DNA of 55,647 bases from positions 1-55,647 of the forward strand of contig PBLA01000012.1 in the NCBI GenBank assembly GCA_002722245.1. The letters run 5' to 3'. The notes beneath the pieces were generated by a model. The model made no database searches and was not told where the DNA came from. It saw nothing but the letters and a program-made list of their open reading frames with translations. The DNA comes from Flavobacteriales bacterium. GTDB lineage: Bacteria > Bacteroidota > Bacteroidia > Flavobacteriales_C > GCA-002722245. Of this stretch, positions 1 to 55,200 are shown piece after piece. The first letter of the stretch is position 1. Each line of letters starts with the position of its first letter. A program made the position numbers and the translations under genes.

Positions 1-1230
1 AATTTTTACAATTTCTTCTTCAATTGGTTTATATGTGGAAAGCATACAATTGCTTTTTCCCCATTCAACGTTTAAACTGTTAATTTTATTAATAAGTTCA
101 ACAGCCATTTCCTCGTGACTGCATTTTGATGGATGCCAAGCATCGCCATATCCCCAGTCGTCTTTAGGTTTTTCTGTCCATTTTTCTGCTGTAAAGGGCA
201 ATTCCAACGTGGTAACATTTTCAGTAAAGCTATCGGCTACTTGATTGGCGATTGTTCTCAACCGAGTTAATTGTTGGGTCCATGTGGGCCATGAATCGGA
301 CTTGGAATTCCCAAAACAAATAATAATTTTTGAGCAGGGATGGTAGGCTCTTAGTTTGGTGATGAAATCAATGTAGGTTTGTTGAAAGGCTTCATCATCC
401 AACTTATACTCCTCTCCTCCCTCCTCCTGGGCCATATCATTTGTTCCCAAATGAATGGATATTACATCGGGATGATATTTGCTGTGATCCCATATTACGG
501 ATGCGTCGTCTTCAAAAAGATGGTCGTAATTTTTTGGAATCGTATGGGTGGTGGTTCCTGTATTGTTGCGATACAAGCCTCTACCCGATGTGGCTGTAAC
601 ATGGTATTGAGCTCCCAGAGCTCTCGCCGTAATGGGTCCCCATGCATAGTAATTATCTTCGTTGGCAGCATAATAATTTGAGTAAGCCATAGAAGCTGGT
701 CCTGAAGCAAACTGACTCACGTTTCCATAGCCACACGTCCAGGAATCTCCGATAAATTCTATTCTTTTTTGAGATGCTGAATCGGGAGTTACTAAATCCT
801 CCGATCCTCCGGTTATTATGAATCCTTTAAAAGAACTTTTTCCCGAGGCGCCTTCAGTGATTTTCATCAGCTCTACGGTATGTTCGGCTGGGGTCAAACC
901 AGATGCCAACAAATAATTAACCTCTCCAGTGGCCACTTTAAGTTGCTCATTTACTATTTGCCCGTCAATTAATATTTTATAAAAATTACCACTTGCATCT
1001 GATCCATCCCCGTAGTCCTCTATAATTGCTGTTATTTCAGCTCCATTGAATTTGGCTTTTATGGATACACCCGGATAAATATAAGTAGGTTGCTCAGGAT
1101 TTGAGAAATCAATTCTCCCCATGTATTGAATTTTATCATTACTTGCAGAGATATTCGTTTGAGCTGAAAGCGATAATGCTTTAATGGCTAAACCTAAAAC
1201 AAATGAGTATTTAAGAAAAGGGATTTTCAT
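1..1230 (-). CDS. Secreted CE2-like SGNH carbohydrate esterase, C-terminus cut by window edge
   Basis: The frame opens at an ATG ending at 1230 and stays open to base 1, giving at least 410 residues. Residues 1-24 form a signal peptide ending in LSLSAQ. Residues about 30-145 look like the N-terminal jelly-roll of carbohydrate esterase family 2. The SGNH hydrolase domain follows: IEFIGDSWTCGYGN with nucleophile Ser163, HLGTND at 260-265 (block III Asn264), and GDAWHPS with Asp363/His366. CE2 enzymes deacetylate plant or algal polysaccharides; this substrate is inferred from the family. The frame runs on past the usual domain end (residues 390-410), so a linker and T9SS sorting domain may lie beyond the edge. 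It is divergent from the methyltransferase at 1480. An endoglucanase-type SGNH esterase of other specificity cannot be excluded. Confidence 0.85.
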   Translation of the reverse strand, partial: MKIPFLKYSFVLGLAIKALSLSAQTNISASNDKIQYMGRIDFSNPEQPTYIYPGVSIKAKFNGAEITAIIEDYGDGSDASGNFYKILIDGQIVNEQLKVATGEVNYLLASGLTPAEHTVELMKITEGASGKSSFKGFIITGGSEDLVTPDSASQKRIEFIGDSWTCGYGNVSQFASGPASMAYSNYYAANEDNYYAWGPITARALGAQYHVTATSGRGLYRNNTGTTTHTIPKNYDHLFEDDASVIWDHSKYHPDVISIHLGTNDMAQEEGGEEYKLDDEAFQQTYIDFITKLRAYHPCSKIIICFGNSKSDSWPTWTQQLTRLRTIANQVADSFTENVTTLELPFTAEKWTEKPKDDWGYGDAWHPSKCSHEEMAVELINKINSLNVEWGKSNCMLSTYKPIEEEIVKI

Positions 1231-1289
1231 GGTGGTAATTTAAAAAGTTAAAGGGTAAACTGATGTAATTCGTCATATTAAAACATGCT

Positions 1290-1319
1290 CAAAATAACAA
1301 ATTTGATTCCGCTTACCAA
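1290..1319 (-). promoter_or_regulatory. Candidate Bacteroidota promoter for the CE2-like esterase
   Basis: On the minus strand a TTG (1317-1319) is followed after 19 nt by TTATTTTG (1290-1297), one mismatch from TAnnTTTG. The implied leader is about 55 nt. Seen by eye only. Confidence 0.4.
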
Positions 1320-1411
1320 ATTAAAAAGTTTGCAAAAAATGGACCATCATTTTTTTTTGATGGCTACTATTTGATAAAACGTGAGATGAATTTCCATTTT
1401 TAACTTTCTCA

Positions 1412-1442
1412 TTCAATTATATTTTGTGGTTTTTTACCTTTG
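1412..1442 (+). promoter_or_regulatory. Candidate promoter for methyltransferase copy 1
   Basis: TACCTTTG at 1435-1442 matches TAnnTTTG exactly. The -33 element is weak (TTC at 1412-1414, 20 nt spacer). It lies 37 nt upstream of the ATG at 1480. Confidence 0.4.
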
Positions 1443-1479
1443 CTTTTAAATATCTTTGAGTTTTTAAAGTCGATTTATT

Positions 1480-2934
1480 ATGCCGAGAAGGGAAAGAAAC
1501 AAGTTTGTGAAAAGGGGTCAGGTTCTTGAAATCCAGATTGAAGACTATGCTTTTGGTGGAAAAGGAATTGGACGCCTGAAGAGTGAGCTTGGAGATTTTG
1601 TGGTATTTGTACCGAATTCTTTACCTGGACAGTTTGTGAAAGCACAGGTTAAAAAATCGAGTAAAACCTATGCTGAGGCGAAATTGCTGGAGGTTATTAA
1701 GCCCTCAAAAGATGAAACAGATATTCCCTACCAAGAAATTTCGGGTGCTCCATACATTAAACTTCCAATAGAAAAACAATGGGCTTATAAAAAAAACAGT
1801 ACGTTGGAACTTTTTAAACGCATTGGTAAAGTCACGGATATTGAAGATAAATTTGATGAGTTTGTGCATTCTCCAAGCACGTTTCACTACCGTAATAAAA
1901 TGGAATATTGTTTCTCGGCTATTGGTTATGACCATGAGGAAAGAACGGATGTGGATGAGTTTACTATGGGGTTCAAAAAACGAGGTACTTGGTGGTGTGC
2001 GGAAGACTTAAACAAGGATTCGGGATTGTTCGATAAAGAACTTGAAGATAAGTTGAAGGAGGTCAAGGAGTATTGCAAGAATACTGGATTATCTCCCTGG
2101 CACGGACCAAAAAAATTAGGATTCTTTCGCTATTTTGTCGTGAGAAAATCGTTTAAAACCACCCAGTTGCTTTTTAATCTGGTGACTACCTCACATGATT
2201 TACCACAATTTGATTTGCAAAAATTTGCTTCCTTTTTGGTAGAACTTCTAGGAGAACATCGTGTAGCGGGCTTACTGCATACTATTAATGATGAGATTGG
2301 AGATCGAACGTTGGCTACCTCGGGAGACATTAATTTGGTTTACGGAGAAGAAAAGATTGTAGAAGAGTTATTGGGACTCAACTTTGAAATCAGTATGAAA
2401 AGTTTCTTTCAAACAAATCCAAAATCAGCTGAAAAATTATATTCAAAAGTAATTGACTATGCATTGGACAAAAAGGAAACCATCGACAACAACGTTGTTC
2501 TGGATTTGTTTTGTGGAACAGGTACAATTGGTCAAATTTTAGCTTCAAAAAGTGAAAATGCTCAAATTATTGGAGTAGATATTGTGGAGTCTGCTATTGA
2601 AAATGCCAGAGAGAATGCGATGCGAAATAATATTGAAGGGATTCAGTTTTATGCAGCCGATGTTGGTAAATTTTTATTTGAACACCCTGAATATACGGGG
2701 AAAATAAGAACAATTATCCTGGATCCTGCTCGTGCTGGCGTTGCGCCTAAAACCATGAAAAAAATCATCAATCTTGGTTCAGAAAGAATGGTTTACGTTT
2801 CTTGTAATCCAGCCACTCAGGCAAGAGATGCAGAGCTTTTAAGTGAGGCAGGCTATTCCATTAAAAAGTTCAGTTTAGTGGATCAGTTTCCTCATACTTC
2901 TCATATTGAAACTGTGGTGCTTTTTGAAAAGTAA
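1480..2934 (+). CDS. rlmD: RlmD/RumA-type 23S rRNA (uracil-C5)-methyltransferase, copy 1
   Basis: SAM-dependent m5U methyltransferase of the TrmA/RlmC/RlmD family, 484 residues. An N-terminal TRAM RNA-binding domain covers about 10-75. The Rossmann methyltransferase domain has FFQTNP (309-314), DLFCGTGTIG (SAM motif I, 342-351), LDPARAG (414-420), the catalytic cysteine in SCNP (Cys442) and the general base in HIE (Glu477). The 4Fe-4S cysteine cluster of classical RumA is absent: the matching stretch (residues 83-103) has no cysteine. The exact target uridine cannot be told from sequence. A near-identical paralogue lies at 10106 and a broken third copy at 14568. I count about 32 substitutions between the two full copies and none in residues 229-325. 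The start is set by conservation of MPRRERNKFV in both copies. Confidence 0.9.
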   Translation: MPRRERNKFVKRGQVLEIQIEDYAFGGKGIGRLKSELGDFVVFVPNSLPGQFVKAQVKKSSKTYAEAKLLEVIKPSKDETDIPYQEISGAPYIKLPIEKQWAYKKNSTLELFKRIGKVTDIEDKFDEFVHSPSTFHYRNKMEYCFSAIGYDHEERTDVDEFTMGFKKRGTWWCAEDLNKDSGLFDKELEDKLKEVKEYCKNTGLSPWHGPKKLGFFRYFVVRKSFKTTQLLFNLVTTSHDLPQFDLQKFASFLVELLGEHRVAGLLHTINDEIGDRTLATSGDINLVYGEEKIVEELLGLNFEISMKSFFQTNPKSAEKLYSKVIDYALDKKETIDNNVVLDLFCGTGTIGQILASKSENAQIIGVDIVESAIENARENAMRNNIEGIQFYAADVGKFLFEHPEYTGKIRTIILDPARAGVAPKTMKKIINLGSERMVYVSCNPATQARDAELLSEAGYSIKKFSLVDQFPHTSHIETVVLFEK

Positions 2935-2982
2935 ATTTGAATAAACACATTTCTTTTTTTCCCTATTGATTTTATCATTTTA

Positions 2983-3051
2983 AAAGGATTCTATAAAAAT
3001 TATCGAGTTCACCAATATCAATCTGTTGGTACTGTTACATTGATTGGATAG
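2983..3051 (+). pseudogene. Relic of a type B T9SS sorting domain (last 22 codons)
   Basis: The 69 bases read KGFYKNYRVHQYQSVGTVT then LIG and a stop. This closely matches the last 22 residues of the complete protein at 11792-14476 (KGYDKNYRVDQYKAVGTVT then LIR, stop). It lies right behind methyltransferase copy 1, as the complete gene lies behind copy 2. The rest of the gene, about 870 codons, is missing, so this is the tail of a deleted duplicate. Confidence 0.85.
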
Positions 3052-3069
3052 TAGTTTTTTAAAAAAATA

Positions 3070-5151
3070 TTATTCGCAAACTTGCAAAGCAGTATTAAAA
3101 TAAAAAGGCTGATGGGTTGGATAACGCCTCCATTTAAAATACTTTTCATTAAATAAAACTAAATCCCACTCTTTTGCTTTGCCTCGATAATCTTTTCTAT
3201 GCTCACCCTGAATACGAACTCTAAGCCCATTTTTATATACTCCGAGTATATCGTATATTAAAAATTTGACCTTTCCGTCTTGCCAGTCAATGGAATCTCT
3301 ATAGGTTACTTTCATAGTTTTTTCCGACAACTTAAATTGAAATCTTCTGCTATTTGAATTACAGCCCTCTTGATCAGATGTCCAATCTTTATTACTAAGA
3401 ACATTTGTAATAGAGTCCAGATATTTCCAAGATGTTGACTTATATACCTCAACAGGTAATTTTGTCCAATTATATTTTTTTCTATCGCTGTAAATACTGT
3501 TTCGTATTTGGTCTATGTACGAATAATTAGGAACGGCTTTAATTAAGCGAAGATATATATCGTTCGCTTTTTCATAGTCTTCAAGATCACGGTAAGTAAA
3601 AAATAGTTCTCGGTAACCATAACCATTATAAGGAAAATACTTTATGGTCATTTTTAACAACTCAATGAGTTCATTTTTATATTTTTCCCTCTCAGAGCAA
3701 TAGGAATACATCAAATTTAGTTCTTTATAAAAATCAAAATTATGTGGATAAAGCTTAATTGCTTTTTTTAAATAATATATTGATTTATTATCATAAGGAA
3801 TTGAGTATTTAGAAAACAAGCCTTCAGAGGCTAACTTATACCCTTTAGCTAATCCAAATGAATAGTTTGCATTTGATGAATCTTGTTTAAATGCTTTTTC
3901 ATAGGCATTTATCATTCTCTTACCTAGTGCTCTTTCCTTTTTCGATTGGTCCATAAGTACTACCATTGCAACATCCCAAGTTTCAATATTGAGGGAATCG
4001 AGCTGCAAAGATTTCTCAATCATTTCAAGTGCCTCATCTTCCCTCTGAAAATTATGAATAACGGTAGCTAAACTGTTGTAATACCTCTGGACGGTAGAAT
4101 CTATAGCAATTGCTTTTTTAAACCACTTCTCCGCTATTAAATTTTCTGGGTTTCTATATAGAATACCTGTCATATTTGATTTAACACTTAAGCCTTTTAG
4201 ATAATATGCGTAGTGGTGTTTATTATCATTTTTAATCAAGAAATCACAAAGTTTAATCGCAGATTGATAGTTTCCCAAATTATAAAAGTTCATAGCAAGA
4301 AGTTTTGCTACATGTTTTTCCTTGTTTTCTTTGAAAAAAGGAATTAAATAATCATTAGATATTTTATATTTCCCAGCATTATGATACAACTCACCAACAC
4401 GTTTTTTAAAATCGTCGCGACGATTTTTTACATCAATCAAGTGTAAACATCTCAAAGCTTGATTAAAAGAATCTTTTTTTTCATAAAACATTGCGGATGT
4501 TCTATAATACAAAGGAGGGTTTACATCTTTTAATTCTTTTAACTCAAAAATTGCATCTTTACAACTTTGAGTAATGTCAAATTGGAGTTTTGATGCTTGA
4601 ACTAGAACTTCTTCACTTATTGGCAAGCATTTTTTTATTTTACTTGCATAGCTGTTAAATTCTTGCAAATTTTTCTGTTTTCTTGCTATATAAAGTAACT
4701 TGTAATAGTTAAATAAAAACATTGAATCAACTCGGGAAACATCTTCAAAATCTTTTTTTGCACTTTTATATTGCCCGTTTTTTAATTTGATATTTCCATT
4801 TTGGTATGATCTTAAGCCGATTATTCCTTGCCTATTAATTTTATCACAAGTTTTTTTTGCTCTTTTTCTAAATGATGGTTTTAAAGATTTATCATCACCT
4901 AGTTGAGAAAGAATAATTACTGGGTTTAATATCTCTCCTTCTAAAAATAAAGAATACCCCAGGTAAAATTTATCTATTGAACTTAAACTGGAATACGCTT
5001 CCGTCTTGGAATAATAACTTTTTCTGATTTCTTTATAGTTCTTCGCTTTAAAAAGTTCTTCCAGTTTTGATATATGGGACTGGGCATTTAAAATTTGAGA
5101 CGAAAAGAAAAGAACAAAAATATACCACTTCATAAAACAATTAAATTTCAC
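3070..5151 (-). CDS. Exported TPR-repeat protein of unknown function
   Basis: 693 residues with a signal peptide ending ILNAQS (about residue 25). Most of the chain is helical tetratricopeptide-like repeats, such as the block around IAIDSTVQRYYNSLATVIHN and the neighbouring unit with SLQLDSLNIETWDVA. The last ~110 residues are different, beta-rich, with charged and aromatic residues and no repeat pattern. A periplasmic or outer-membrane-associated scaffold is inferred; I do not recognise the family. It sits inside duplicated segment A between the sorting-domain relic and the 75-residue gene, where segment B has a methyltransferase relic, so it arrived or was retained independently of the duplication. 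Met7 is an alternative start. Confidence 0.8.
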   Translation of the reverse strand: MKFNCFMKWYIFVLFFSSQILNAQSHISKLEELFKAKNYKEIRKSYYSKTEAYSSLSSIDKFYLGYSLFLEGEILNPVIILSQLGDDKSLKPSFRKRAKKTCDKINRQGIIGLRSYQNGNIKLKNGQYKSAKKDFEDVSRVDSMFLFNYYKLLYIARKQKNLQEFNSYASKIKKCLPISEEVLVQASKLQFDITQSCKDAIFELKELKDVNPPLYYRTSAMFYEKKDSFNQALRCLHLIDVKNRRDDFKKRVGELYHNAGKYKISNDYLIPFFKENKEKHVAKLLAMNFYNLGNYQSAIKLCDFLIKNDNKHHYAYYLKGLSVKSNMTGILYRNPENLIAEKWFKKAIAIDSTVQRYYNSLATVIHNFQREDEALEMIEKSLQLDSLNIETWDVAMVVLMDQSKKERALGKRMINAYEKAFKQDSSNANYSFGLAKGYKLASEGLFSKYSIPYDNKSIYYLKKAIKLYPHNFDFYKELNLMYSYCSEREKYKNELIELLKMTIKYFPYNGYGYRELFFTYRDLEDYEKANDIYLRLIKAVPNYSYIDQIRNSIYSDRKKYNWTKLPVEVYKSTSWKYLDSITNVLSNKDWTSDQEGCNSNSRRFQFKLSEKTMKVTYRDSIDWQDGKVKFLIYDILGVYKNGLRVRIQGEHRKDYRGKAKEWDLVLFNEKYFKWRRYPTHQPFYFNTALQVCE

Positions 5152-5164
5152 TGATTTTAGGAAG

Positions 5165-5172
5165 CAAATTTA
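5165..5172 (-). promoter_or_regulatory. Candidate -7 box for the TPR gene
   Basis: TAAATTTG on the minus strand matches TAnnTTTG exactly and lies 13 nt from the ATG at 5151. No convincing -33 element is seen. Confidence 0.3.
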
Positions 5173-5241
5173 TTAAAAAGCAAAAGAAGTTAATCCATTT
5201 ATTTTATGGGCAATTCTGAATCAGTATCCCTAGATTAATTA

Positions 5242-5469
5242 CTAATTATTCAAATGGTCCTCCCCATAGATGCTAAAGTAGTTTTCAGGATCTTGGTTTA
5301 GGTATTCAACTTCCTGAATAATTACTCTTTTGATGAGTCCTTTGATTTTTGATTTTGTAAAAGCATCCAATTGGCAATCAGTTGAAGCAAAATGTTGTTT
5401 TAACAAATCGGAAACTAAACTTTCGGCATTTTCAAGAAACCTTTCTTCTATTTTTATTTTCTCTTCCAT
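5242..5469 (-). CDS. 75-residue conserved small protein, family copy S1
   Basis: A soluble, charged, probably helical protein with no signal peptide, so likely cytoplasmic. I do not recognise the family. Four copies occur in this window (here, 6054, 14872, 16380). All share KIK.E..F near the start, a central Cys32, then DAFTK.K.KGLIKR.I..EVEYL, and PENYF...G.DHL.N at the end. This copy is closest to the one at 14872 (17 differences in 75 by hand count), which holds the same position left of a Kazal gene in segment B. It is divergent from the Kazal lipoprotein at 5630, 160 bp away. The strict conservation over about 40 residues argues for a real, constrained protein. Confidence 0.8.
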   Translation of the reverse strand: MEEKIKIEERFLENAESLVSDLLKQHFASTDCQLDAFTKSKIKGLIKRVIIQEVEYLNQDPENYFSIYGEDHLNN

Positions 5470-5629
5470 GTCAGCTTTTTTAAATGGGTGTTACAATAGT
5501 TACAAAAAATAGTTTTTTAGGGAAAGGTTTCAAACGATATTGTTTTTTTGAAAGCAACCTTTTTTTAACTCGTATGTCTTAAAATTATTATTTATAATTA
5601 CAAACAAATAACCTTTAACAACAAAATTT

Positions 5630-6007
5630 ATGAATCAATATTCTGATTTTCTAAATCGTACAATGAGATTGGCTTTTAGTTTGTTGTTCACTTCTCTTGT
5701 AGTTTTATCGTGCGACAAAAATGAATGCGAAAGAAAAAATTGTAAGGACGCTATTCCTCTATATTATGATCCAGTTTGTGGTTGTGATGATGCTACGTAT
5801 AGTAACCCTGAAGAGGCAGAATGTCATGGAATTGAAAACTATACAAAAGGAGTGTGCGAAAAAGAATGTGAAGAAAAGACCTGTGAAGGAGGTTATATAG
5901 AAATTTATGATCCAGTTTGTGGTTGTAATGGAGCTACCTACTCCAACTCTGCAGAAGCAGAATGTAAAGGAATTACTTCATACACCCAAGGTGAATGTGA
6001 GGATTAA
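5630..6007 (+). CDS. Lipoprotein with two Kazal-like domains
   Basis: 125 residues. The N-terminus is a lipoprotein signal with lipobox LVVLSC; Cys28 is the predicted lipidated residue, and the homologues at 15246 and 16095 also place it at 28, which supports this start. Two Kazal-type units follow (about 33-76 and 80-123), each with six cysteines around the core YDPVCGC followed by TYSN and .GI..YT.G.C. Kazal domains usually inhibit serine proteases by a reactive loop; bacterial ones are little studied, so inhibition is inferred. Compared with textbook Kazal domains the core reads CGC and the cysteine after TYxN is shifted. It is convergent with the 75-residue gene at 6054. Its end (GECED, GAGGATTAA) resembles the end of the single-Kazal gene at 16095. 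Confidence 0.85.
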   Translation: MNQYSDFLNRTMRLAFSLLFTSLVVLSCDKNECERKNCKDAIPLYYDPVCGCDDATYSNPEEAECHGIENYTKGVCEKECEEKTCEGGYIEIYDPVCGCNGATYSNSAEAECKGITSYTQGECED

Positions 6008-6015
6008 CAAAAAAA

Positions 6016-6031
6016 AGGAGGGCTCCCCCCT
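6016..6031. terminator. Weak hairpin between convergent genes
   Basis: A-tract, then AGGAGGG..CCCCCT, a short imperfect stem (one A-C mismatch). It occupies the position of the clean terminator at 16337 in segment B and may be a decayed version of it. Confidence 0.3.
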
Positions 6032-6053
6032 AATTAAAAGAACCAAACTCTAT

Positions 6054-6281
6054 TTAATTTTGTAAATGATCTTTTCCGTGAACTACAAAATAATTTTCGG
6101 GGTATTCATTTAAATATTCTACTTCCTGAAAAATTGCTCTTTTTATGAGTCCCTTCATTTTAGCTTTTGTGAAAGCATCTATTTTACAGTCGGGACTTGA
6201 ATAATGCTGTTTTAATAAATTCAATACTAAATCTTCGGTAGTTTCTATAAAGCCTTCCTCCATTTTAATTTTATCTTTCAT
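6054..6281 (-). CDS. 75-residue conserved small protein, family copy S2
   Basis: Second member of the unrecognised small-protein family. The frame is open for 11 more codons upstream (to 6314), but all four family members align from MxxKIKxE, so the start at 6281 is chosen; the DNA just upstream (AAAAG..ACAGG-like) also matches that of the copy at 16380. It is closest to the 16380 copy (10 differences in 75), less so to its neighbour at 5242 (26 differences). It therefore shares ancestry by position: S2 and S4 both lie tail-to-tail with a Kazal lipoprotein. No signal peptide or membrane span is visible. Function unknown; co-occurrence with secreted Kazal proteins is the only clue. Confidence 0.8.
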   Translation of the reverse strand: MKDKIKMEEGFIETTEDLVLNLLKQHYSSPDCKIDAFTKAKMKGLIKRAIFQEVEYLNEYPENYFVVHGKDHLQN

Positions 6282-6604
6282 AGTCTCTTGTCTTTTAAAG
6301 TTTAACGTATCCATTTCAAAAATTAGTATTTAATTGCTCTTTTACACTTGTTAAGTCAAAAACCAGACCAAACTTTGCGAATGCTGTTTTATGGTTCAGA
6401 AATACCGATTCGAAATTATCCGAAATATTGATTTTATGATTCCGTTTTTTACAACAGCTTTCTAAATACATAATGCTCGCTTACATAAAAGGTTACACAT
6501 TTAAAAAAAAATAGTGTCTTACGTTGCCGCATAAAAACAAAAAAATCCGACCTAAGTCGGATTTTTTATTCTATTAAATTGAAAACGTATTGTGTTTTCG
6601 CTTT
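6282..6604. other. Gene-free spacer between small gene S2 and hppA
   Basis: AT-rich. Apart from the hairpin at 6541-6566 I see no gene. Short stretches (for example near 6360, 'aaaaacCAGACCAAACTTTGCG') resemble the spacer right of the copy at 16607, consistent with the segmental duplication reaching about 6400. Confidence 0.5.
6541..6566 (-). terminator. Rho-independent terminator of hppA
   Basis: An 11-bp stem, AAAAATCCGAC pairing with GTCGGATTTTT, with loop CTAA. On the minus strand it is followed by a T-rich run, and it lies about 40 nt beyond the hppA stop codon. Confidence 0.85.
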
Positions 6605-8905
6605 TTACTTTTGAGAAGTAAACTCCTCTACTTTTTCAGCAGGAAGTTTTTCCAATTCCACTACCTTTTCTGTTTTTTCAACTGAAGTAGCTTCAATGGT
6701 ATTTACGTTTTCAACTGAAGTTTTATCTAAAGAATGTCCTCCTAAGATTGGAGCAATCACTAAACCAATTAAACATGTTAATTTAATTAAGATGTTCATA
6801 GATGGTCCTGAAGTATCTTTAAATGGATCACCAACTGTATCTCCAGTTACTGCTGCCTTATGGGCATCAGAACCTTTGTACGTCATTTCTCCGTTAATTT
6901 CTACTCCTGCTTCAAATGATTTCTTCGCGTTATCCCATGCACCACCAGCGTTGTTTTGGAAGATTGCCCAAAGCACTCCACTTACAGTTACACCTGCCAT
7001 GTATCCTCCTAACATTTCTGCTACGATTTTGTTGTCTTCTGGATAAGCGATCATTCCAACAATAACAATTAAAATTGGGAAACCAATTGTTAACACACCT
7101 GGTAATAACATTTGCTTCAATGAAGCTTTTGTTGAGATGTCTACACATTTATCGTATTCTGGTTTTCCAGTACCTTCCATGATACCAGCAATTGTTTTAA
7201 ACTGTCGTCTAACTTCTTCAACCATTTCCATTGCTGCTTTTCCTACTGCGTTCATTGCTAAAGCAGAGAAAACTACAGGGATCATACCTCCAATGAATAA
7301 CATAGCTAGTACTGGCGCTCTAAAGATGTTAATTCCATCAATTCCAGTAAATGTTACGTATGCTGCAAAGAGTGCTAATGACGTTAATGCGGCAGAAGCA
7401 ATAGCAAATCCTTTACCTGTTGCAGCAGTGGTGTTTCCTACTGAATCTAAGATATCTGTTCTTTCTCTTACGATTGGATCTTGCTCACTCATTTCAGCAA
7501 TACCTCCTGCGTTATCAGAGATTGGCCCGAATGCATCAATAGCTAACTGCATTGCTGTAGTAGCCATCATTGCGGATGCTGCTAATGCCACTCCGTAGAA
7601 TCCTGCAAATGCATAAGATGCCCAAATCGCTAAAGCGAATAACAAAACAGAAGAGAACGTTGAGATCATCCCTGTTGCTAGTCCTGCAATAATGTTTGTT
7701 CCAGCACCTGTTGAAGATTGTTGAACAATTTTTAAGATTGGTTTTTTTCCTAACCCTGTGTAGTATTCTGTAAATGAAGAAATAGCTGCTCCAACAATTA
7801 AACCTACTAAAGAAGCATAAAATACTCTCATTGATGAGATTTCTTTTGTTCCTTCTCCAAAGAATGACATTTGCATTGTTTCTGGAAGCATCCACTGTAC
7901 TAAACCAAAACAAGCAACAGCAACTAATAAAATTGATGTCCAGTTTCCAATGTTTAATGCTTTTTGAACTTCAGCCTCTTTTGCGTAATTGGACTTGATT
8001 TTTACTAAGAACGTACCAATAATAGAGATGATAATACCAGCTCCTGCAATAGCTACTGGTAATAAAATTGTTCCGATTCCTCCGAATGCGTCCTCAATTT
8101 TACCTCCCATATCTTTAATTACATAGTTTCCTAATACCATGGCCGCTAATACTGTAGCAACATACGATCCGAATAAATCGGCTCCCATTCCTGCCACATC
8201 TCCTACGTTATCTCCTACGTTATCTGCAATTGTTGCAGGGTTACGAGGATCATCTTCTGGTATACCAGCTTCAACTTTCCCTACTAAGTCAGCTCCTACA
8301 TCAGCTGCTTTTGTGTAGATACCTCCACCTACTCTCGCAAATAAAGCAATTGATTCAGCTCCCAAAGAGAAACCTGCAAGTGTTTCTAACACAATAGTCA
8401 TATCATTGGTATTTGTCCACTCGCTTCCCATAAATACTTGGAAGAAAATAATAAAGAATGCTGTTAATCCCAATACAGCCAATCCTGCAACACCTAATCC
8501 CATAACTGTTCCTCCTCCAAATGCAACATTTAATGCGTTTGGTAAGCTTGTTTTTGCGGATTGTGTTGTTCTAACGTTTGATTTTGTAGCGATTTTCATC
8601 CCCATGTTCCCTGCCAATGCTGAGAAAATAGCTCCGATAATAAACGCTACTATAATTAAGTAATGTGTTGTTGGAACGATGTAAGCGATGAATGCAAGAA
8701 GTAAACTTGCTCCGATTACGAAAATAGTCAGTAATCGATACTCTGCTTTTAAGAATGCTAATGCACCTTCGTAAATGTAATCGGAGATTTCTTTCATTTT
8801 TCCGTCTCCTGCATCCTGTTTTAATACTTGGGCTCTCTTTACTACCATGTAAAGAAGACCAACCAAGGATAAAATAATTGGTAAATAAATTGCGATTGAT
8901 TCCAT
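6605..8905 (-). CDS. hppA: Membrane-bound ion-translocating pyrophosphatase
   Basis: 766 residues, the normal length of the family. It hydrolyses pyrophosphate and pumps Na+ and/or H+ across the inner membrane; about 16 membrane segments are visible. The signature pyrophosphate-binding motifs are present: DVGADLVGKVE (202-212) and DNVGDNVGD (228-236). At the site that separates K+-dependent from K+-independent enzymes the sequence is GNTTAATGKG, with Ala494 and Gly497, the K+-dependent pattern; Na+ pumping is common in that subgroup, but the ion is an inference. The C-terminal ~40 residues form a charged Val/Glu/Lys-rich tail after the last span. The gene lies alone between a candidate promoter and a strong terminator, in the gap between the two duplicated segments. 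Confidence 0.97.
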   Translation of the reverse strand: MESIAIYLPIILSLVGLLYMVVKRAQVLKQDAGDGKMKEISDYIYEGALAFLKAEYRLLTIFVIGASLLLAFIAYIVPTTHYLIIVAFIIGAIFSALAGNMGMKIATKSNVRTTQSAKTSLPNALNVAFGGGTVMGLGVAGLAVLGLTAFFIIFFQVFMGSEWTNTNDMTIVLETLAGFSLGAESIALFARVGGGIYTKAADVGADLVGKVEAGIPEDDPRNPATIADNVGDNVGDVAGMGADLFGSYVATVLAAMVLGNYVIKDMGGKIEDAFGGIGTILLPVAIAGAGIIISIIGTFLVKIKSNYAKEAEVQKALNIGNWTSILLVAVACFGLVQWMLPETMQMSFFGEGTKEISSMRVFYASLVGLIVGAAISSFTEYYTGLGKKPILKIVQQSSTGAGTNIIAGLATGMISTFSSVLLFALAIWASYAFAGFYGVALAASAMMATTAMQLAIDAFGPISDNAGGIAEMSEQDPIVRERTDILDSVGNTTAATGKGFAIASAALTSLALFAAYVTFTGIDGINIFRAPVLAMLFIGGMIPVVFSALAMNAVGKAAMEMVEEVRRQFKTIAGIMEGTGKPEYDKCVDISTKASLKQMLLPGVLTIGFPILIVIVGMIAYPEDNKIVAEMLGGYMAGVTVSGVLWAIFQNNAGGAWDNAKKSFEAGVEINGEMTYKGSDAHKAAVTGDTVGDPFKDTSGPSMNILIKLTCLIGLVIAPILGGHSLDKTSVENVNTIEATSVEKTEKVVELEKLPAEKVEEFTSQK

Positions 8906-10105: not shown

Positions 10106-11560
10106 ATGCCAAGAAGGGAAAGAAACAAGTTTGTAAAAAGGGGTCAAATTTTAGAAATCCAGATTGAAGATTATGCTTTTGGTGGTAAAGGTATTGGACG
10201 ACTGAAGAGTGAGTTGGGTGATTTTGTGGTATTTGTCCCGAATTCATTGCCTGGGCAGTTTGTGAAAGCGCAGGTTAAAAAATCGAGCAAAACCTACGCT
10301 GAGGCCAAATTATTGGAGGTTCTTACGCCCTCGGAGGATGAAACAGACATTCCATTTCAAGAAATTTCGGGAGCGCCTTACATTAAACTTCCTGTAGAAA
10401 AACAATGGGCTTATAAAAAAGATAGTACACTGGAACTTTTTAAACGTATTGGGAAAGTTGAGGATATTGAGGAAAAGTTTGATGAGTTTGTGTGTTCGCC
10501 AAATACGTTTCACTATCGCAATAAAATGGAATACTGTTTTTCTGCTATTGGTTATGATCATGAGGAGAAAACGGATGTGGATGAATTTACCATGGGATTT
10601 AAAAAGCGAGGTACATGGTGGTGCGCGGAGGATTTAAATAAGGATTCAGGATTATTTGATAAAGAGTTGGAAGATAAACTGAAACAGATTAAAGAGTACT
10701 GTAAAAATACTGGATTATCTCCCTGGCACGGGCCCAAAAAAGAGGGTTTCTTTCGATATTTTGAGGTTCGCAAATCATTTAAAACCAATCAGTTGCTTTT
10801 TAACTTGGTGACTACCTCACACGATTTACCGCAATTTGATTTGCAAAAATTTGCTTCCTTTTTGGTAGAACTTTTAGGAGAACATCGTGTAGCGGGCTTA
10901 CTGCATACGATTAATGATGAGATTGGGGATCGCACCTTGGCTACCTCGGGAGACATTAATTTGGTTTACGGGGAAGAAAAAATTGTAGAAGAATTGTTGG
11001 GACTCAATTTTGAAATCAGCATGAAAAGCTTTTTTCAAACCAACCCAAAATCGGCAGAAAAACTATATTCTAAAGTAATCAGTTATGCCTTGGATAAAAA
11101 GGAGACCATTGACAACACTGTTGTGTTGGACTTGTTTTGCGGAACGGGTACTATTGGTCAAATTTTAGCTTCTAAGAGTGATAATGCAAAAATTGTAGGT
11201 GTTGATATTGTGGAATCGGCGATTGAAAATGCCAGAGAGAATGCTATGCGAAATCATATTGAAGGGGTTCAATTTTATGCGGCTGATGTGGGTAAATTTT
11301 TGGTTGAGCATCCCGAATATGCGGGTAAAATTAGAACAATTATCCTTGACCCTGCACGTGCAGGTGTGGCTCCAAAAACAATGAAAAAAATTATAAATCT
11401 TGGTGCTGAGCGAATGGTGTATGTTTCATGCAATCCTGCCACTCAAGCCAGAGACACTGAAATACTTAATGAAGCAGGTTATACGATTCAAAAGTTTAGC
11501 CTAGTAGACCAGTTTCCTCATACCTCCCATATTGAAACGGTGGTTTTGTTTGAGAAATGA
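10106..11560 (+). CDS. rlmD: RlmD/RumA-type 23S rRNA (uracil-C5)-methyltransferase, copy 2
   Basis: 484 residues, the same length as copy 1 and roughly 93 percent identical by hand count. All catalytic features are kept: TRAM domain, DLFCGTGTIG, Cys442 in SCNP and Glu477 in HIE; the Fe-S cysteines are again missing. Differences cluster in residues 70-130, 190-228 and 326-465, while residues 229-325 are identical. The synonymous pattern is uneven: parts of the 229-325 region are nearly identical in DNA, suggesting gene conversion. Both copies look functional, so they may modify different uridines (as RlmC/RlmD do) or simply be redundant. Followed at 231 bp by the complete type-B-sorted protein, the arrangement of which only a relic remains behind copy 1. 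Confidence 0.9.
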   Translation: MPRRERNKFVKRGQILEIQIEDYAFGGKGIGRLKSELGDFVVFVPNSLPGQFVKAQVKKSSKTYAEAKLLEVLTPSEDETDIPFQEISGAPYIKLPVEKQWAYKKDSTLELFKRIGKVEDIEEKFDEFVCSPNTFHYRNKMEYCFSAIGYDHEEKTDVDEFTMGFKKRGTWWCAEDLNKDSGLFDKELEDKLKQIKEYCKNTGLSPWHGPKKEGFFRYFEVRKSFKTNQLLFNLVTTSHDLPQFDLQKFASFLVELLGEHRVAGLLHTINDEIGDRTLATSGDINLVYGEEKIVEELLGLNFEISMKSFFQTNPKSAEKLYSKVISYALDKKETIDNTVVLDLFCGTGTIGQILASKSDNAKIVGVDIVESAIENARENAMRNHIEGVQFYAADVGKFLVEHPEYAGKIRTIILDPARAGVAPKTMKKIINLGAERMVYVSCNPATQARDTEILNEAGYTIQKFSLVDQFPHTSHIETVVLFEK

Positions 11561-11791
11561 GTTGCGCATAAAACCATTTTTTCACCCCATTAATTTCGTT
11601 GTTTGTGAAAAGGCAAAATTAAGGTGGTTTTCTGAGCAATTCATTTATTACTGTTGTCTTATCAATTTATTTTAGCAAAAAATAGATAAATTAACCCGCA
11701 AATTAAAAAACACCAATAGTGGTATTTTTTTTTGCTATTGAATAACACTGAATTAGTAACAAACCTAGGCAGATAATTGTTTTTGCATTTA

Positions 11792-14476
11792 ATGAATTTT
11801 GAGGAGCTCTATAATTTGAACTTTAAGTATAGATGGAATAGGTTACGAATTGTATCTCTAATCTTCTTTATTTTTTGTGGTTTGTTAAATATCCACGGCC
11901 AAGTTTCAATTGAAACAAAAGACAACACGAATTGCCGAGGAGAATCAAAGGCTTGTGAATACGACGGCCCCTCTATTTTAATCAATGAAATAAGCATCAG
12001 TCCATCCATGTTTGATGGCTCATTGGTTTCTGGAAGTTTGTTCACCGTTATGGAAGGACAAGGAGAATGGATTGAATTGTATAATCCTAATGAATGTGAA
12101 TCGGTAGACATTTCTGGATATATGCTTGGTTCATACAATAGTAATGGAGGTGGAGGTGGGAGCACATTAGGTATGGGGTATATTTTACCCCAAGGAACTG
12201 TTGTGCCACCAAATGGTTTTGTTGTAATTCGTGGAAAAAACGCACCTGCTCCTGATCCGAATGCAATTGATATTATTGTTACTGAATTTGATAATAACCT
12301 GTGCTGGACAGGTGGGGCTACTAGTAGGTTTTGGTTCCAAAATTACGGCAGCTGGTTTGCTTTCTACGACCGAAACGGTGTTCCTCAAGATGCTATTAAA
12401 TGGGGGAATCCAATAAGTAATGATTTGAACCAGAAGCCATGTATCCCATCACAAAACTTTTTTTCTGAAGATGTTAATTTCGTGTCTTCCTTCAATGAAA
12501 TTCCACAGAGTAATTATTTAGGTTCAACTTCTGAAGGCTATAATTTCGTTCGATTACCAGATGGCGGAGATTGGTCAAATTTTCAAGTACCTGAATTCAC
12601 ATCCTTCGGGAGCTGTAATGAAATTGGAGAATGTAAAAATGCTGAAGGATCAAGTACATGCAATGGTGAGGCAAATGTAATTCCTGAATTTGGAACTGGA
12701 CCTTATTCATTTTTATGGGATGATAATTTAAAGCAGACCTCACAAAAAGCCACCCAATTGTGTCCTGGAATTTACACCGTGAAAATTACAGATGCTCAAG
12801 GTATTCAAAAGGAAGTTGAAGTGGAAATCGAAGAAGATTATTTTGAAATTGAATCTCTTACTTTAAATCAACCTTGTGAAGGAGGAAAGGGTAATGCGGT
12901 TGTACATTTGTTTTTTGATAATCCCTCAACTGAACGCAACATTGCCTATGAGTGGTTGCCCAATGTATCTGTGGATTCTATTGCAAACAATTTACAGGTT
13001 GGAACTTATACTGTGATAGTTAACGACGGAAATTGTTTTGATGATACAACCTTTAAAATTGAACATAATGAGATTAATGTAGATTTTTCTTCATCCAAAA
13101 CAGTGGGTTGTATTGGTGAAGAATTGAGTTTTGAAAACAATTCTACAGGAGTAATAGAAAGTACGTCTTCCTGTTTATGGACGTTACCCGATGGAACTAA
13201 GCATTCCAATTGCAATATGAAATATACCTTTGATGAATCGGGTTCTTTTCCAATTACTTTAGAAGTTACGGATGAAAACGACTGTAAAAAGGAATTGACT
13301 ATTCCCAATATGATTCAAATTAATGAACCCCCAAAGATTGAACTTGGGGAAAAACGATTACTTTGTGACAATGAAACAACGGTGTTAAATGCTCCAATGG
13401 GTTATAGTAAATATCATTGGTCACCAACTAATGAAACAACCTCCAGTATACAGACTTCCGAAATTGGGGATTACACACTAACTGTAACGGATGAAAATGA
13501 ATGTGAATCAGAAAGTAAGATTACTTTAAACTCTGCACCTTCTCCAAATGTTAATTTAGGGGCTGACACTTCTTTTTGCGAAGGAGGTAAAATAACTTTA
13601 TCCATCGCGCCTGAACACGAAATTTTATGGAGTACTGGAGCGACAATTACTTCAATTGAAATAGATGAACCAGGGCTATATCGAGTAGATGTTACCAATG
13701 AACACAATTGTTCAGGATTTGATGAAAAAATAGTAACAGTTGTTTCTTATCCAACGCAGTTAGATATAGACAAATCAGATACCGTAGGATGTGATGGTGA
13801 TAAAATTTTTTTACATGTTGAAAGCGATGCAGAATTTATCCATTGGAGTAATGGACAAGAAGGTTTTGAAAGCTCTTTTGAGGAAAGTGGTATGGTACAA
13901 ATTTTAGCCAGTAATAAAGAGAACGGTGCGCATTGTTCAATACGTGATTCTGTTTATCTTAATTTTCATCCATATCCTAAAATTGAGAAACTAGATTCTT
14001 TTATACATTGTTTTGAATACAGTAAGAGTGCTACTATTCACACAAAGACCAAAGCCTTACATTATATCTGGGAAGGAAACCGATCAAATAGTCCTTACCA
14101 TATGGTGCACTCAGAAGGAGTATATGATGTGGAAGTATATGATTATCACAATTGTAAACTAAAACAGTCCATTTTTTTGGAAGAAAAATGTCCTTTACGC
14201 GTTTTCGTCCCTAATGCTTTTACTCCAGGAAGTGGGATAAACCCCTATTTTTATCCGGTTGTTTCCAACTACACTCACTTTGAATTTTATATATACAACC
14301 GATGGGGCCAACTGATTTTCAAATCTGATGACCCCAATGATGGATGGGATGGAACTTATAATGGAAAGCTTGCTCAGCAAGATGTTTACGTGTGGAAAAT
14401 ATTTGTCAAAGGGTACGACAAAAACTATCGTGTGGACCAATACAAAGCTGTTGGAACGGTTACTCTGATTAGATAG
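11792..14476 (+). CDS. Large secreted protein with lamin-tail domain and type B T9SS sorting domain
   Basis: 894 residues from the ATG at 11792; a longer frame from TTG 11777 is less likely. A hydrophobic signal (IVSLIFFIFCGLLNIHGQ) follows a basic stretch. Residues about 60-230 form a lamin-tail (LTD) beta domain (ILINEIS, GEWIELYNP, DISGYML, PPNGFVVIRG). Next come SprB-like and PKD/Ig-like units (CNGEANV..GTGPYSFLW; LWTLPDG; YTLTVTDENEC), rich in paired cysteines. The last ~95 residues are the gliding-motility-associated C-terminal domain (VFVPNAFTPG, FEFYIYNRWGQLIF, DGWDGTYNG, VYVWKI), the type B signal for export through T9SS. It is probably a cell-surface adhesin or matrix protein. A 22-codon relic of its duplicate lies at 2983. 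Confidence 0.9.
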   Translation: MNFEELYNLNFKYRWNRLRIVSLIFFIFCGLLNIHGQVSIETKDNTNCRGESKACEYDGPSILINEISISPSMFDGSLVSGSLFTVMEGQGEWIELYNPNECESVDISGYMLGSYNSNGGGGGSTLGMGYILPQGTVVPPNGFVVIRGKNAPAPDPNAIDIIVTEFDNNLCWTGGATSRFWFQNYGSWFAFYDRNGVPQDAIKWGNPISNDLNQKPCIPSQNFFSEDVNFVSSFNEIPQSNYLGSTSEGYNFVRLPDGGDWSNFQVPEFTSFGSCNEIGECKNAEGSSTCNGEANVIPEFGTGPYSFLWDDNLKQTSQKATQLCPGIYTVKITDAQGIQKEVEVEIEEDYFEIESLTLNQPCEGGKGNAVVHLFFDNPSTERNIAYEWLPNVSVDSIANNLQVGTYTVIVNDGNCFDDTTFKIEHNEINVDFSSSKTVGCIGEELSFENNSTGVIESTSSCLWTLPDGTKHSNCNMKYTFDESGSFPITLEVTDENDCKKELTIPNMIQINEPPKIELGEKRLLCDNETTVLNAPMGYSKYHWSPTNETTSSIQTSEIGDYTLTVTDENECESESKITLNSAPSPNVNLGADTSFCEGGKITLSIAPEHEILWSTGATITSIEIDEPGLYRVDVTNEHNCSGFDEKIVTVVSYPTQLDIDKSDTVGCDGDKIFLHVESDAEFIHWSNGQEGFESSFEESGMVQILASNKENGAHCSIRDSVYLNFHPYPKIEKLDSFIHCFEYSKSATIHTKTKALHYIWEGNRSNSPYHMVHSEGVYDVEVYDYHNCKLKQSIFLEEKCPLRVFVPNAFTPGSGINPYFYPVVSNYTHFEFYIYNRWGQLIFKSDDPNDGWDGTYNGKLAQQDVYVWKIFVKGYDKNYRVDQYKAVGTVTLIR

Positions 14477-14567
14477 TGTTTTTATACAATACCATACATT
14501 TTGGAATTCTAACATGAGTTATCCCTCAACAAGATTGATTTTTCAAACAACCTTGCCTCGATATATT

Positions 14568-14861
14568 CTGCCGAGAAAGAAAAGAAACAAATGACAATAA
14601 TGTTGTTATAGATTTATTTTGTGGTACTAGAACCTTTGGTCAAATTATAGCTAGAAAAAGTAAAAATGTCCATTTTTTTTGAGTAAACATTCTAGATTCT
14701 GCTATTGAAAATGATACTCAAAATTTAATCTTGCCACTCAAGCCATAGACACTGAGATTCTTAATGAAGCAGGTTATGGGATTCAAAAGTTTAGCCTAGT
14801 AGACCAGTTTCCTCATACCTCCCATATTGAAACGGTGGTTTTGTTTGAACGGAATGTGTAG
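14568..14861 (+). pseudogene. Collapsed third copy of the RlmD/RumA methyltransferase
   Basis: The sequence begins like the functional genes (LPRKKRNK in place of MPRRERNK, start ATG now CTG), then jumps over about 330 codons to DNNVVIDLFCGTRTFGQI, is broken by a stop near 14681, continues as DSAIEND, skips about 60 codons more and ends ATQAIDTEILNEAGYGIQKF through HIETVVLFERNV and a stop at 14859-14861. The final part is identical to copy 2 over 69 bases (14780-14848 against 11485-11553), whereas the middle part is much more diverged. It cannot make an enzyme. It lies between the type-B-sorted gene and the small gene at 14872. Confidence 0.9.
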
Positions 14862-14871: not shown

Positions 14872-15099
14872 TTAATTATTTAAATGGTCTTCACCATAAA
14901 TGCTGAAATAATTTTCAGGATCTTCCTGTAAATACTCTACCTCACCACTAATTACACGCTTAATAAGTCCTTTTATCTTGGCTTTGGTAAAAGCGTCCAA
15001 CTGGCATTTGGGTGTAGCAAAATACGCTCCTAAGAGATCGTTCACTAATGTTTCAGTCTGCTCAAGAAATCTTTCTTCTATTTTAATTTTTCTTCTCAT
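14872..15099 (-). CDS. 75-residue conserved small protein, family copy S3
   Basis: Third member of the unrecognised family, with the conserved core DAFTKAKIKGLIKRVI, EVEYL and PENYFSIYGEDHLNN. It pairs with the copy at 5242: both end identically and both lie left of, and divergent from, a two-Kazal lipoprotein gene. The N-terminus is more basic here (MRRKIKIEERF). The reading frame ends 10 bp from the methyltransferase relic, which runs toward it. No signal peptide, no membrane span. Confidence 0.8.
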   Translation of the reverse strand: MRRKIKIEERFLEQTETLVNDLLGAYFATPKCQLDAFTKAKIKGLIKRVISGEVEYLQEDPENYFSIYGEDHLNN

Positions 15100-15245
15100 G
15101 GCAGTTTACTTTTTACTCTACCTAAGTTTACGCAAAATAGCTTTTAATGGAAAGTTTTTAGGAGTATATTGTATGAACGGTGCAACCTTTTTCTAAAAGC
15201 TGTGTCCTTGATTATGACTGGACACACACTTTAAAAAGATAATCT

Positions 15246-16049
15246 ATGAATCAATCTATTCCCCTTTTAAATTCTATATCCAAGCTTCTTTTTAGCCTGT
15301 TTTTTTGTGCGTTAATGGTGATATCATGTGATACGGATGATTGTAAAGAAACATCATGTAATGGAGCAATACCCGAATATTACGATCCAGTTTGTGGATG
15401 TAACGAAGTAACTTACGGGAATCCTGATGAAGCGATTTGCCATGGAATTGAAAACTATACCAAGGGAGAGTGTAATAAAGAGGATTCTTCGGATTGTGAG
15501 GAGAAATTATGTGATGGATTTTATTTGACAATTTATGATCCTGTTTGTGGATGTAATGGAAAAACGTATTCAAACTCTGGAGAGGCGGAATGTAAAGGGA
15601 TTACAAATTACACAAAAGGAGAGTGTGATCATGAAAAAGACACGCTATGTGACCATTCTGAATTCCTCAATTTTGAAGATCCCGATAGCCTTTTGGCTTT
15701 AAATATTAAAAAATGGCTCAGCTTTGACGTTTGTAATTACTCGTTTACTCGAAGAATATCTTGTTTTTGTACGGATGAGTACACAGCTCCTAAATCAATA
15801 CAAATAGAAAATGGTAAGGTTATTCTAATAGATAATGAGTCCCCTGAAAGCGATGAGCTGGATGATTATCAAACGGTGGATGCGCTTTTCAAATCAATTC
15901 ATGAATTACATCAAAAATCGGTTAATGAGTTAAATGTAACGTATGATGAAACGTATGGTTTTCCTAAAACATTATATATTGATTATGACAGTATGATCGC
16001 AGACGATGAATACTCATATATATTTTCAGATTTCTCCATCATTGAATAA
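15246..16049 (+). CDS. Lipoprotein with two Kazal-like domains fused to a DUF6174-like domain
   Basis: 267 residues. Lipoprotein signal with lipobox VISC (Cys28). Two six-cysteine Kazal-like units follow (about 33-75 and 84-128), each centred on YDPVCGCN. The remaining ~130 residues resemble DUF6174: an N-terminal W/Y-rich helix (NIKKWLSFDVCNYSF), a cysteine pair (SCFCTDEY), a strand ending IENGKVILI, a helix (TVDALFKSIHELH) and the closing pattern VTYDETYGFPKTLYID...DDEYSY. DUF6174 has no known function. The 5630 homologue in segment A lacks this third domain. It is divergent from the small gene at 15099 and 45 bp upstream of the single-Kazal gene, probably one transcript. Protease inhibition at the cell surface is an inference. 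Confidence 0.87.
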   Translation: MNQSIPLLNSISKLLFSLFFCALMVISCDTDDCKETSCNGAIPEYYDPVCGCNEVTYGNPDEAICHGIENYTKGECNKEDSSDCEEKLCDGFYLTIYDPVCGCNGKTYSNSGEAECKGITNYTKGECDHEKDTLCDHSEFLNFEDPDSLLALNIKKWLSFDVCNYSFTRRISCFCTDEYTAPKSIQIENGKVILIDNESPESDELDDYQTVDALFKSIHELHQKSVNELNVTYDETYGFPKTLYIDYDSMIADDEYSYIFSDFSIIE

Positions 16050-16094
16050 TTTTACAGTTAACTGGATTTTTTATCCGTTTTTATTGGTTTGATT

Positions 16095-16331
16095 ATGACG
16101 AGATTATTTCTGTATTTCTATTCAAAAACACAATGGACATTTCTGTTTATCCTTTTTGTGCTTCTTGGGGCTTCTTGCAGCAAAAAATGTACTGAAGTTC
16201 CGTGTGAAAGGGGGTATTTGAAAATTTATGCTCCGGTTTGTGGATGTAACAATTTGACGTATTCGAATTCTTCGGAGGCAGAATGTAAAGGGATACATGA
16301 GTATACAGATGGCCCCTGCAAAGAGGATTAA
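16095..16331 (+). CDS. Lipoprotein with one Kazal-like domain
   Basis: 78 residues from the ATG at 16095 (the frame is open two codons further upstream, to a TTG). The lipobox GASC puts the lipidated cysteine at 28, as in both larger homologues. One Kazal-like unit fills the rest: CTEVPCERGYLKIYAPVCGCNN, with TYSN, ECKGI and GPC. It follows the two-Kazal/DUF6174 gene by 45 bp and converges on the small gene at 16380, with a clean terminator between them. The core here reads YAPVCGC rather than YDPVCGC, so the residue just before the core proline, near where a Kazal reactive loop would be, differs between paralogues. Confidence 0.82.
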   Translation: MTRLFLYFYSKTQWTFLFILFVLLGASCSKKCTEVPCERGYLKIYAPVCGCNNLTYSNSSEAECKGIHEYTDGPCKED

Positions 16332-16336
16332 TGTGA

Positions 16337-16358
16337 AAAAGGGGACTCCTCCCCTTTT
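16337..16358. terminator. Bidirectional terminator between Kazal gene and small gene S4
   Basis: A 9-bp perfect stem AAAAGGGGA / TCCCCTTTT with loop CTCC. T-runs on both strands suit the two convergent genes. Confidence 0.85.
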
Positions 16359-16379
16359 ACTTCTTTCAATACTTACTCA

Positions 16380-16607
16380 TTAATTTTGTAAATGATCTTG
16401 ACCATGCACTCCAAAATAGTTTTCGGGATATTCACTGAGGTACTCTACCTCTTGAAAAATCGCGCGCTTAATTAGTCCTTTCATTTTTTCTTTTGTAAAG
16501 GCGTCTATTTTACAGTGGGGACTGGAATAATGTTTTTTTAATAATTCCAATACTAGATTTTCGGTTGTTTCAATAAAGCCTTTTTCCATTTTGATTTTGT
16601 CTTCCAT
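16380..16607 (-). CDS. 75-residue conserved small protein, family copy S4
   Basis: Fourth member of the family and closest to the copy at 6054 (10 of 75 residues differ). It has the shared core DAFTK.KMKGLIKRAIFQEVEYL and the end PENYFGVHGQDHLQN. It lies tail-to-tail with a Kazal lipoprotein across a shared terminator, as the 6054 copy does. Its start defines the family N-terminus (MEDKIKMEKGF). Function unknown. Confidence 0.8.
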   Translation of the reverse strand: MEDKIKMEKGFIETTENLVLELLKKHYSSPHCKIDAFTKEKMKGLIKRAIFQEVEYLSEYPENYFGVHGQDHLQN

Positions 16608-52220: not shown

Positions 52221-55200
52221 TTATTTTTTGATAAACTTTTGAGATTTTACTATTTGGTTATCAGAACAAAGTTTCACGAAATACATTCCAGGAGATAACT
52301 CATTTATATCTAAAGTTACTTTACCCAATGAAGTTATATTATAAAAAGTTTCAATTAAGTTACCATTTACTCCTCTAATTTCAATTGACAAATCATTATA
52401 ATTAGTTGAAATATCAATAAATAAATTATTATGAGCTGGGTTTGGATATGATTTGAATAGCTCGTCTTCTTTCTCAACTTTTTCGAAAGTCATATTACTC
52501 GCCACCCTAATGTCATCTTCGTCACTTTCACTATCGTAATCATATGCTCTAGCATCAAACATATCTCTATTTTGAGTTAATACATCGCATAATTCATCTT
52601 GATTAATTTGATTTGAAACTCCACCAATTTGAAGTCCACAGGAAGCTGATGATGAATATAAATTATTACCCATAGTAGTTACACCTGAACTAAGTGAAGA
52701 AACACCATAGTTTCCGAAAATAGTAACTGGATTGTTTGATGCAACATCAATTGCCATCCCTGTTACATTATTACTTGTAAATGAATTTTTGCCTGCTGCA
52801 TTAGATGTAAGACCTGAACCAATCTGATTCGTCATATCTCTATTTATATTAGTCAGACCAAAAGCCGTATAATTGTAAATAAAATTATTCACTATTCTTG
52901 GTGTCACATGATCCCCCAAACTTCCTTCCAAGTGAATTGCTGTTGTATTTTCTGTAATACAGTTTCCTTTTATCACATTGGATACATTTTGGACTCCTCC
53001 ATTAGTAATAAAGTCAGCAATTCCGACAGTTTGAGTTTCCGCTACCAACTTTCCATTTAAATTATTACAACTTACGTTCAGGTTATCAAGACAATCCTCC
53101 ATATAAATTCCATATTTTGAATATTCGTGAATTTCATTATTACTCACATTAGAATTAACTACCGATCTAAGAAGAATACCCATTTGATATCCATGAAACT
53201 CATTATTCCTTATATTAATAATATCTGAATTATTAGTCCATATCGCAGGCATTCCATTGCCAGAGTTAGCATTATCGTCCTTAAAACCTGAGTAAGTCAA
53301 AATATTGTTTTGAATTTTTACATCACTTGAGGTTTCAATATTTATTGGAGTAACAATATCACCAACGGAAACTGGTCCATTAAATTCCGAATTGGAGATA
53401 TTATTCCCATCAAATATAACTTCTTTACCTCTTAGATAGAGTGCATCTTGTACATTAGTAAATTGATTATTTACAATAATCGCTTTAAAAATATCATTAT
53501 CAAAAACAGTTGCACATTCATCACTTACCCAATTGGAATTATCACCATTAAGGGCAAAACCATTAAGTGGTAAATCAAAATTGTTGGATGTAGCATCCCT
53601 TAATACATTTTCAGTAGGATTACTTTGATTCGGACTACCTTGATTACAATCATAATATGCTACCAATCCTAACTCTTCACCTGTTAAGTTACCATCTGCA
53701 TCCGATTGGATCTGAGCAGCAGTTCTTGAGGTATTCCATATTGCAATATCCCACATATTTCCTTTGAAATGCTGAGAAGTTCTATTCCTAGTATCGTATT
53801 CTTGTCCAAAACTTACTACATGATTTGCGGTAATATTGTATCGGATCACATGAGTCCCCTCAGAAATCCCATTAATAAAAATCTCGCCAATATTACCATT
53901 TCTAACATATGCAATATGTGTACATGTTCCAGTAATATCATTAGCTGAAACTATAGCGTTTCTTGAGGCTCTGTTTCTGTGATCAAATACAATTAATTGC
54001 TCACGAGTACCACGACCTGGATCTCCAAGCATTAACATAAATTCATTATCTGCACCTACACTATTTTGAGCAGGATTTACAGAAAAAAGTGCAACTCGTC
54101 CGACATCTTGATTCAGAACATCTGTATTTATCCAAAACTCTACAGTAAAATTATTCCCTGTCAAATTATTTACAACTTCATCTGCATTAATAAAATCATT
54201 GACTCCATCAAAATTTAATACAGACGTTTTATTTAAACTACTATTGTTACTTTGTGAACGTAAAGAAATACCGAAAAAACTTTCTAAATCAGTAGTGTAA
54301 TTACCCCAATTTGATTGCCCGTCATTTGTTCTTGTAAAAGTATTATTCGAAATCTCACCATTAAACTGGGTAGAAAATGCATTTATACCTCCTGCAAAAT
54401 CTTCTGATGTGTTAAACAGTAAATTATCACATCTAAACACTGACTCATCATAAAATACTGGAAATAAATCATTCTTATTAAACGTGTTCCCTGTTATTGA
54501 TGTTAAAAAGTTAATTCTATTCAAATCAATTGAGTGAAAACAGTTAATAAAAGTATTATTAGTTATTCTTAGATTAAAATCCTGATTATTTGAACCGTTA
54601 GCCTGGATTCCATAAGCCGCATTTTTAATAGTTGATGTATTCAAATAACCTAAAAAAGGTGAGTTTTCGTTAACATCAAATCTTAGACCTTTCCAAACAC
54701 CATCAATTGCACAAGGTCGGAAGACAGAATTCGTTGAACGAAATGTAGCATTATTTATAAAATCAATTCCAGCACATTCACCAAAAATAACGTCAACATT
54801 GGTTACATCTAACAATACTCCATCAACTGTTACTGTTACACCTTCTTTAACAAATACTTTATCACTCCAATTCGTCGTTTCAGTAAGTGTTATGTCTTCA
54901 GAATAAACAATTAAATTCTCCAAATCAAAATTCTCTAAACTTTCACAGCACTTGGATGGATCAAAAGGAACAGTTTTTAAATAATTGTCTCTGTTATATT
55001 GAACACTACCATTTAGTATAACGTTCTCCACCTCTAATTTAGGGCCGTTAGATGCACTTTCGGAAAATAAATCATATGAATCATTAGGACCAACACAGAT
55101 CGTTGCAGTTGCTCTACAATCAACTAATTGTATAGGAATTGACTCACCATTTAAATGACCATCTTTATAAAGAGTGTATTTTTTATCTTCACATTCACAA

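Follow-up and report, generated by a model that had tools for sequence, protein, structure and literature searches.

How does a decaying gene come to carry a nearly intact end? The window, which is the entire contig G000:C13 (55,647 bases), holds at 14558-14852 what remains of a 23S rRNA uracil methyltransferase gene of the RlmD type, namely the gene start, nt 993-1126, and nt ~1320-1452. This relic consists of three colinear pieces with two deletions between them, measured at about 323 and 62 codons (~385 in total), close to the 330 and 60 codons given in the initial annotation. Its parts, from left to right, are as follows.

14558 to 14579, plus strand: relic start segment, with ~10 bp of upstream sequence and the first rlmD codons (the start match runs 14558-14590)
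14580 to 14713, plus strand: old decayed middle of the relic, gene nt 993-1126, carrying an in-frame TGA
14714 to 14726, plus strand: second deletion junction, with gene nt 1127-1326 shrunk to 13 bp
14727 to 14848, plus strand: putatively homogenized tail, gene nt 1327-1448 (candidate tract 14732-14843)

The start codon has changed from ATG to CTG at 14568, and the TGA in the middle bears out the earlier report of stops. With its start lost, an in-frame stop, and ~385 codons gone, the relic is a pseudogene, a nonfunctional fragment. The first deletion joins AAAGAAACAA, close to the start, to the similar stretch AAAGGAAACC, close to nt 993, which fits an origin by slippage. The genes against which the relic was read, and its immediate neighbors, are listed here.

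1480 to 2934, plus strand: copy 1, an intact rlmD of 484 codons, on a contig end resembling G001, the metagenome-assembled genome (MAG) of another species; a comparison sequence outside the proposed conversion
10106 to 11560, plus strand: copy 2, an intact rlmD of 484 codons and the favored tail donor (donor stretch 11432-11553)
11777 to 14476, plus strand: gene separating copy 2 from the relic; its 899-aa product is a secreted protein that has PKD and type IX sorting (CHU_C) domains
14872 to 15099, minus strand: 75-aa gene adjoining the relic and convergent with it

Copies 1 and 2 are 85% identical in nucleotide sequence and 93% identical in amino acid sequence. They score 263.9 and 265 bits, respectively, against TIGR00479, above its curated equivalog cutoff of 183.55, and both are predicted by this model to be RlmD/RumA-family 23S rRNA (uracil-1939-C5)-methyltransferases. 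Across gene nt 721-900 (2200-2380 and 10826-11005), the two copies are ~95% identical, as opposed to 85% gene-wide, while their identity to relatives is ordinary there; an older exchange between the copy 1 and copy 2 lineages is possible in this stretch.

The initial annotation had pointed to a 69-base identity with copy 2 beside a strongly diverged middle, had argued that uniform decay would not look like this, and had proposed aligning the relic with both full copies. When identity was plotted along that alignment, the middle (14580-14713) was 77.6% identical to copy 1 and 68.7% identical to copy 2, while the tail (14727-14848) was 95.1% identical to copy 2 (6 of 122 bases differ) and 76.2% identical to copy 1. 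The longest run shared exactly with copy 2 does cover 69 bases, 14780-14848. Informative sites up to 14703, taking start and middle together, favored copy 1 over copy 2 by 18:2; all four sites in the start segment were copy 1-like, and the middle alone gave 14:2 (p = 0.004). Between 14732 and 14843 the ratio was 2:25 (about 2:24-26), and this reversal of affinity from middle to tail had a Fisher p of 2e-7. MaxChi placed the breakpoint between 14703 and 14723, which was matched in 0 of 5,000 permutations, and the best copy 2-like tract, 14732-14843, was matched in 0 of 1,000. The relic is a true mosaic and not a product of chance, with its affinity switching at 14703-14723. Even decay was ruled out by the identity profile and the site counts, as the annotation had supposed.

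We then have to ask when the tail came to resemble copy 2, and in which direction sequence moved. Private substitutions, those found in neither copy, number 28 in the 134 bases of the middle and 4 in the 122 bases of the tail (p = 1.6e-5). Because they are so much rarer in the tail, the exchange would have followed most of the decay. The four private tail changes include nt 1331 and 1346, codon positions that are invariant in 79 relatives, and for this reason the relic tail is not a functional strain variant. The tail thus appears to have been homogenized with copy 2 late, to have decayed slightly since, and to have resumed neutral decay. In trees of the middle and of the tail, built from the relic, the copies, and 40 relatives from other genera, the relic grouped with copy 2 in the tail tree (support, 100/96) on an end branch of 0.06. 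Copy 2 is accordingly the tail's nearest relative, and that part of the earlier proposal of a recent conversion or join stands; the word “recent” holds only in a relative sense, with the tail ~5% away from copy 2 and carrying damaging changes of its own.

The opposite direction, in which copy 2 received its 3′ end from the still-intact ancestor of the relic, would account for the even identity of the relic to copy 1 (77.6% in the middle versus 76% in the tail) and for the low identity of copy 2 to copy 1 in the tail (77% versus 85% gene-wide). This stretch of copy 2 is among the less copy 1-like parts of the gene, yet it lies within the range of the other windows, 7% of which are as low or lower. 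Had such an exchange preceded the decay, the tail should have as many private changes as the middle, about 25 where we counted 4; had it come afterward, copy 2 would have imported damage. The copy 2 tail is undamaged, and of the 28 positions at which it differs from copy 1, 20 are third codon positions, which argues that a decayed relic was not the donor. We regard this direction as very improbable and favor movement from copy 2 to the relic, on the basis of the intact coding state of the copy 2 tail and the low private count.

Our preferred explanation, which we consider likely, is that the relic tail was overwritten by the 3′ end of copy 2 through gene conversion late in its decay. An old rlmD gene would have decayed, losing its start codon and stretches of ~323 and ~62 codons, and late in this process its last ~110-125 bp would have been replaced by the matching 3′ end of copy 2, which lies in the same orientation 3 kb upstream. 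From the register of the block, its limits, and the intact donor, all of which conversion explains, we infer nonreciprocal homologous recombination (gene conversion), presumably of the RecA type, in preference to other kinds of join. The limits of the tract are the limits of homology, a deletion at the left and the gene end at the right. A converted block should lie far nearer its donor than the homologous sequence flanking it, and this is what we found (95% versus 69% identity to copy 2; 0 of 5,000 permutations).

The main rival is a rearrangement in which an old relic without a tail had a fresh fragment of the copy 2 3′ end attached to it by illegitimate recombination. The near-identical part does start at, or a few bases from, the second deletion junction, as such a join would have it. 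However, the fragment is in the correct order, strand, and register, and it stops at the gene end without any of the DNA downstream of copy 2. Site 14726 and the bases past 14848 are also weakly copy 1-like, which speaks against the join. The left flank is the deletion junction, the right one is the gene end with 2-3 copy 1-like sites, and the copy 1-like positions outside the tract (14726, 14849, and 14852) are few and set among mismatches, so that conversion can hardly be told apart from the capture or joining of a fresh tail. We judge the rearrangement unlikely. Under gene conversion the tract is patchy, with two copy 1-like sites inside it, at 14756 and 14759. The relic tail differs from that of copy 2 only within its left ~53 bases; this clustering, noticed post hoc, could reflect a second, shorter event.

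One could also suppose that selection maintains the 69-base identity. Read-through of the 75-aa gene would yield an RNA with a stretch perfectly complementary to the 3′ end of the copy 2 mRNA, a pseudogene-derived antisense regulator, and we find this scarcely credible. Leftward terminators that could stop such a transcript before the relic tail were looked for, and only one weak site was found, inside the 75-aa gene itself.

Whether the mosaic could be a product of assembly depends on how far this contig can be trusted, and its left end calls for caution.

1 to 6856, no strand: contig end near-identical to contig 22 (PBEC01000022) of G001 (MAG SP330, presumably a member of the Tara Oceans MAG set)

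The first 6,061 bases are 99.8% identical to that contig, and near-identity extends to 6856, apart from ~4.7 kb of G001 that is absent here. From 6857, identity falls at once to ~94% and then to ~85%, with the break inside a membrane pyrophosphatase gene (6605-8905); elsewhere, G000 and G001 mostly share 64-84%. The only rlmD of G001 lies near a 75-aa gene. Since its contig end is 99.8% identical to the MAG of another species, copy 1 is probably in effect the rlmD of G001 and not a long-standing paralog. The two full copies need not come from one genome, and at the native locus copy 2 is probably the only working rlmD, accompanied by the relic. The segment 1-6856 probably arose either through chimeric assembly of one of the two genomes or through recent introgression; its GC and tetranucleotide composition does not favor either genome as the owner. 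For the Tara Oceans MAGs, contigs overlapping by 100 bp at 95% identity were merged with Minimus2 (PMC5769542), and this merging could be the source of such a join. A near-identical interspecies segment at a contig end is a warning when paralogs are counted in this MAG. Toward its other end, the contig carries at 53526-53631 and 55542-55647 the two copies, 98% identical, of a 106-bp direct repeat; the second copy lies exactly at the contig end and is the likely reason for the assembly break.

The abrupt break at 6856/6857 makes mixing at the contig level possible, and with it a relic that is a chimera of two strains joined at ~14730, the finding that the initial annotation had named as fatal to its reading. 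The relic itself gave no support for such a join. Its tail is a third sequence, 6 of 122 bases away from copy 2, with nonfunctional changes of its own that include otherwise invariant codon positions, and the DNA after it is unlike the sequence downstream of copy 2, with no 899-aa gene there. An assembly artifact is, in our estimate, highly improbable.

The ancestry of the old part is less firm than that of the tail. In the middle tree the relic joined copy 1 (support, 99/84) on an end branch of 1.63, and the AU test kept the alternative of relic plus copy 2 (p = 0.43). By 14:2 sites the old part would be nearer to the copy 1 lineage than to copy 2; with that p value for the alternative, this is not certain. 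Should the grouping of the middle with copy 1 be correct, the relic would stem from the lineage retained in G001, and copy 2 would be either a diverged paralog or a later arrival. No relic was found in G001 or other members of the genus. Just downstream of copy 1, at 2983-3059, is a 77-bp remnant of the 3′ end of the 899-aa gene (its last ~25 codons), which suggests that rlmD and the 899-aa gene may have adjoined before the two species split.

The 75-aa gene beside the relic, which is followed downstream by genes for small cysteine-rich proteins, has its best relative outside its own genome near rlmD in G001 (77% amino acid identity). Clusters of the 75-aa family with small cysteine-rich protein genes are repeated at 5242-6314 and 14872-16607, and among five genomes of the genus the family occurs only in G000 and G001. 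The rlmD gene is likewise confined to these two at E ≤ 1e-60 among 10 genomes of the family, and the nearest relatives of copy 2 elsewhere are in Flavobacteriaceae (Aquimarina and Winogradskyella). Because of this distribution, rlmD may have been acquired by transfer.

Conversion of a pseudogene by an intact gene nearby is a known and ordinary phenomenon, and the relic would be a case of it. It offers a clean, polarized example of a bacterial pseudogene partly overwritten in this way, and it implies that relics will be misdated if percent identity is used alone. Within the RlmD/RumA family (TIGR00479), copies 1 and 2 pass the cutoff and the relic is a nonfunctional fragment. In bacterial antigenic variation (PMC4534519; Borrelia miyamotoi vmp, PMC9955969), silent copies likewise recombine with an intact gene. 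In those systems an expression site receives sequence from the silent copies, whereas here the intact gene would have overwritten the dead one, in a housekeeping RNA modification family and with no sign of a programmed system. Another likeness is to interlocus gene conversion of duplicated genes (PMC3924818), a short nonreciprocal block between paralogs that leaves a mosaic with a sharp jump in identity. The relic differs from it in that the recipient is a dead bacterial gene and the tract, at ~112 bp, is below the averages of 200-300 bp in yeast (PMC3924818).
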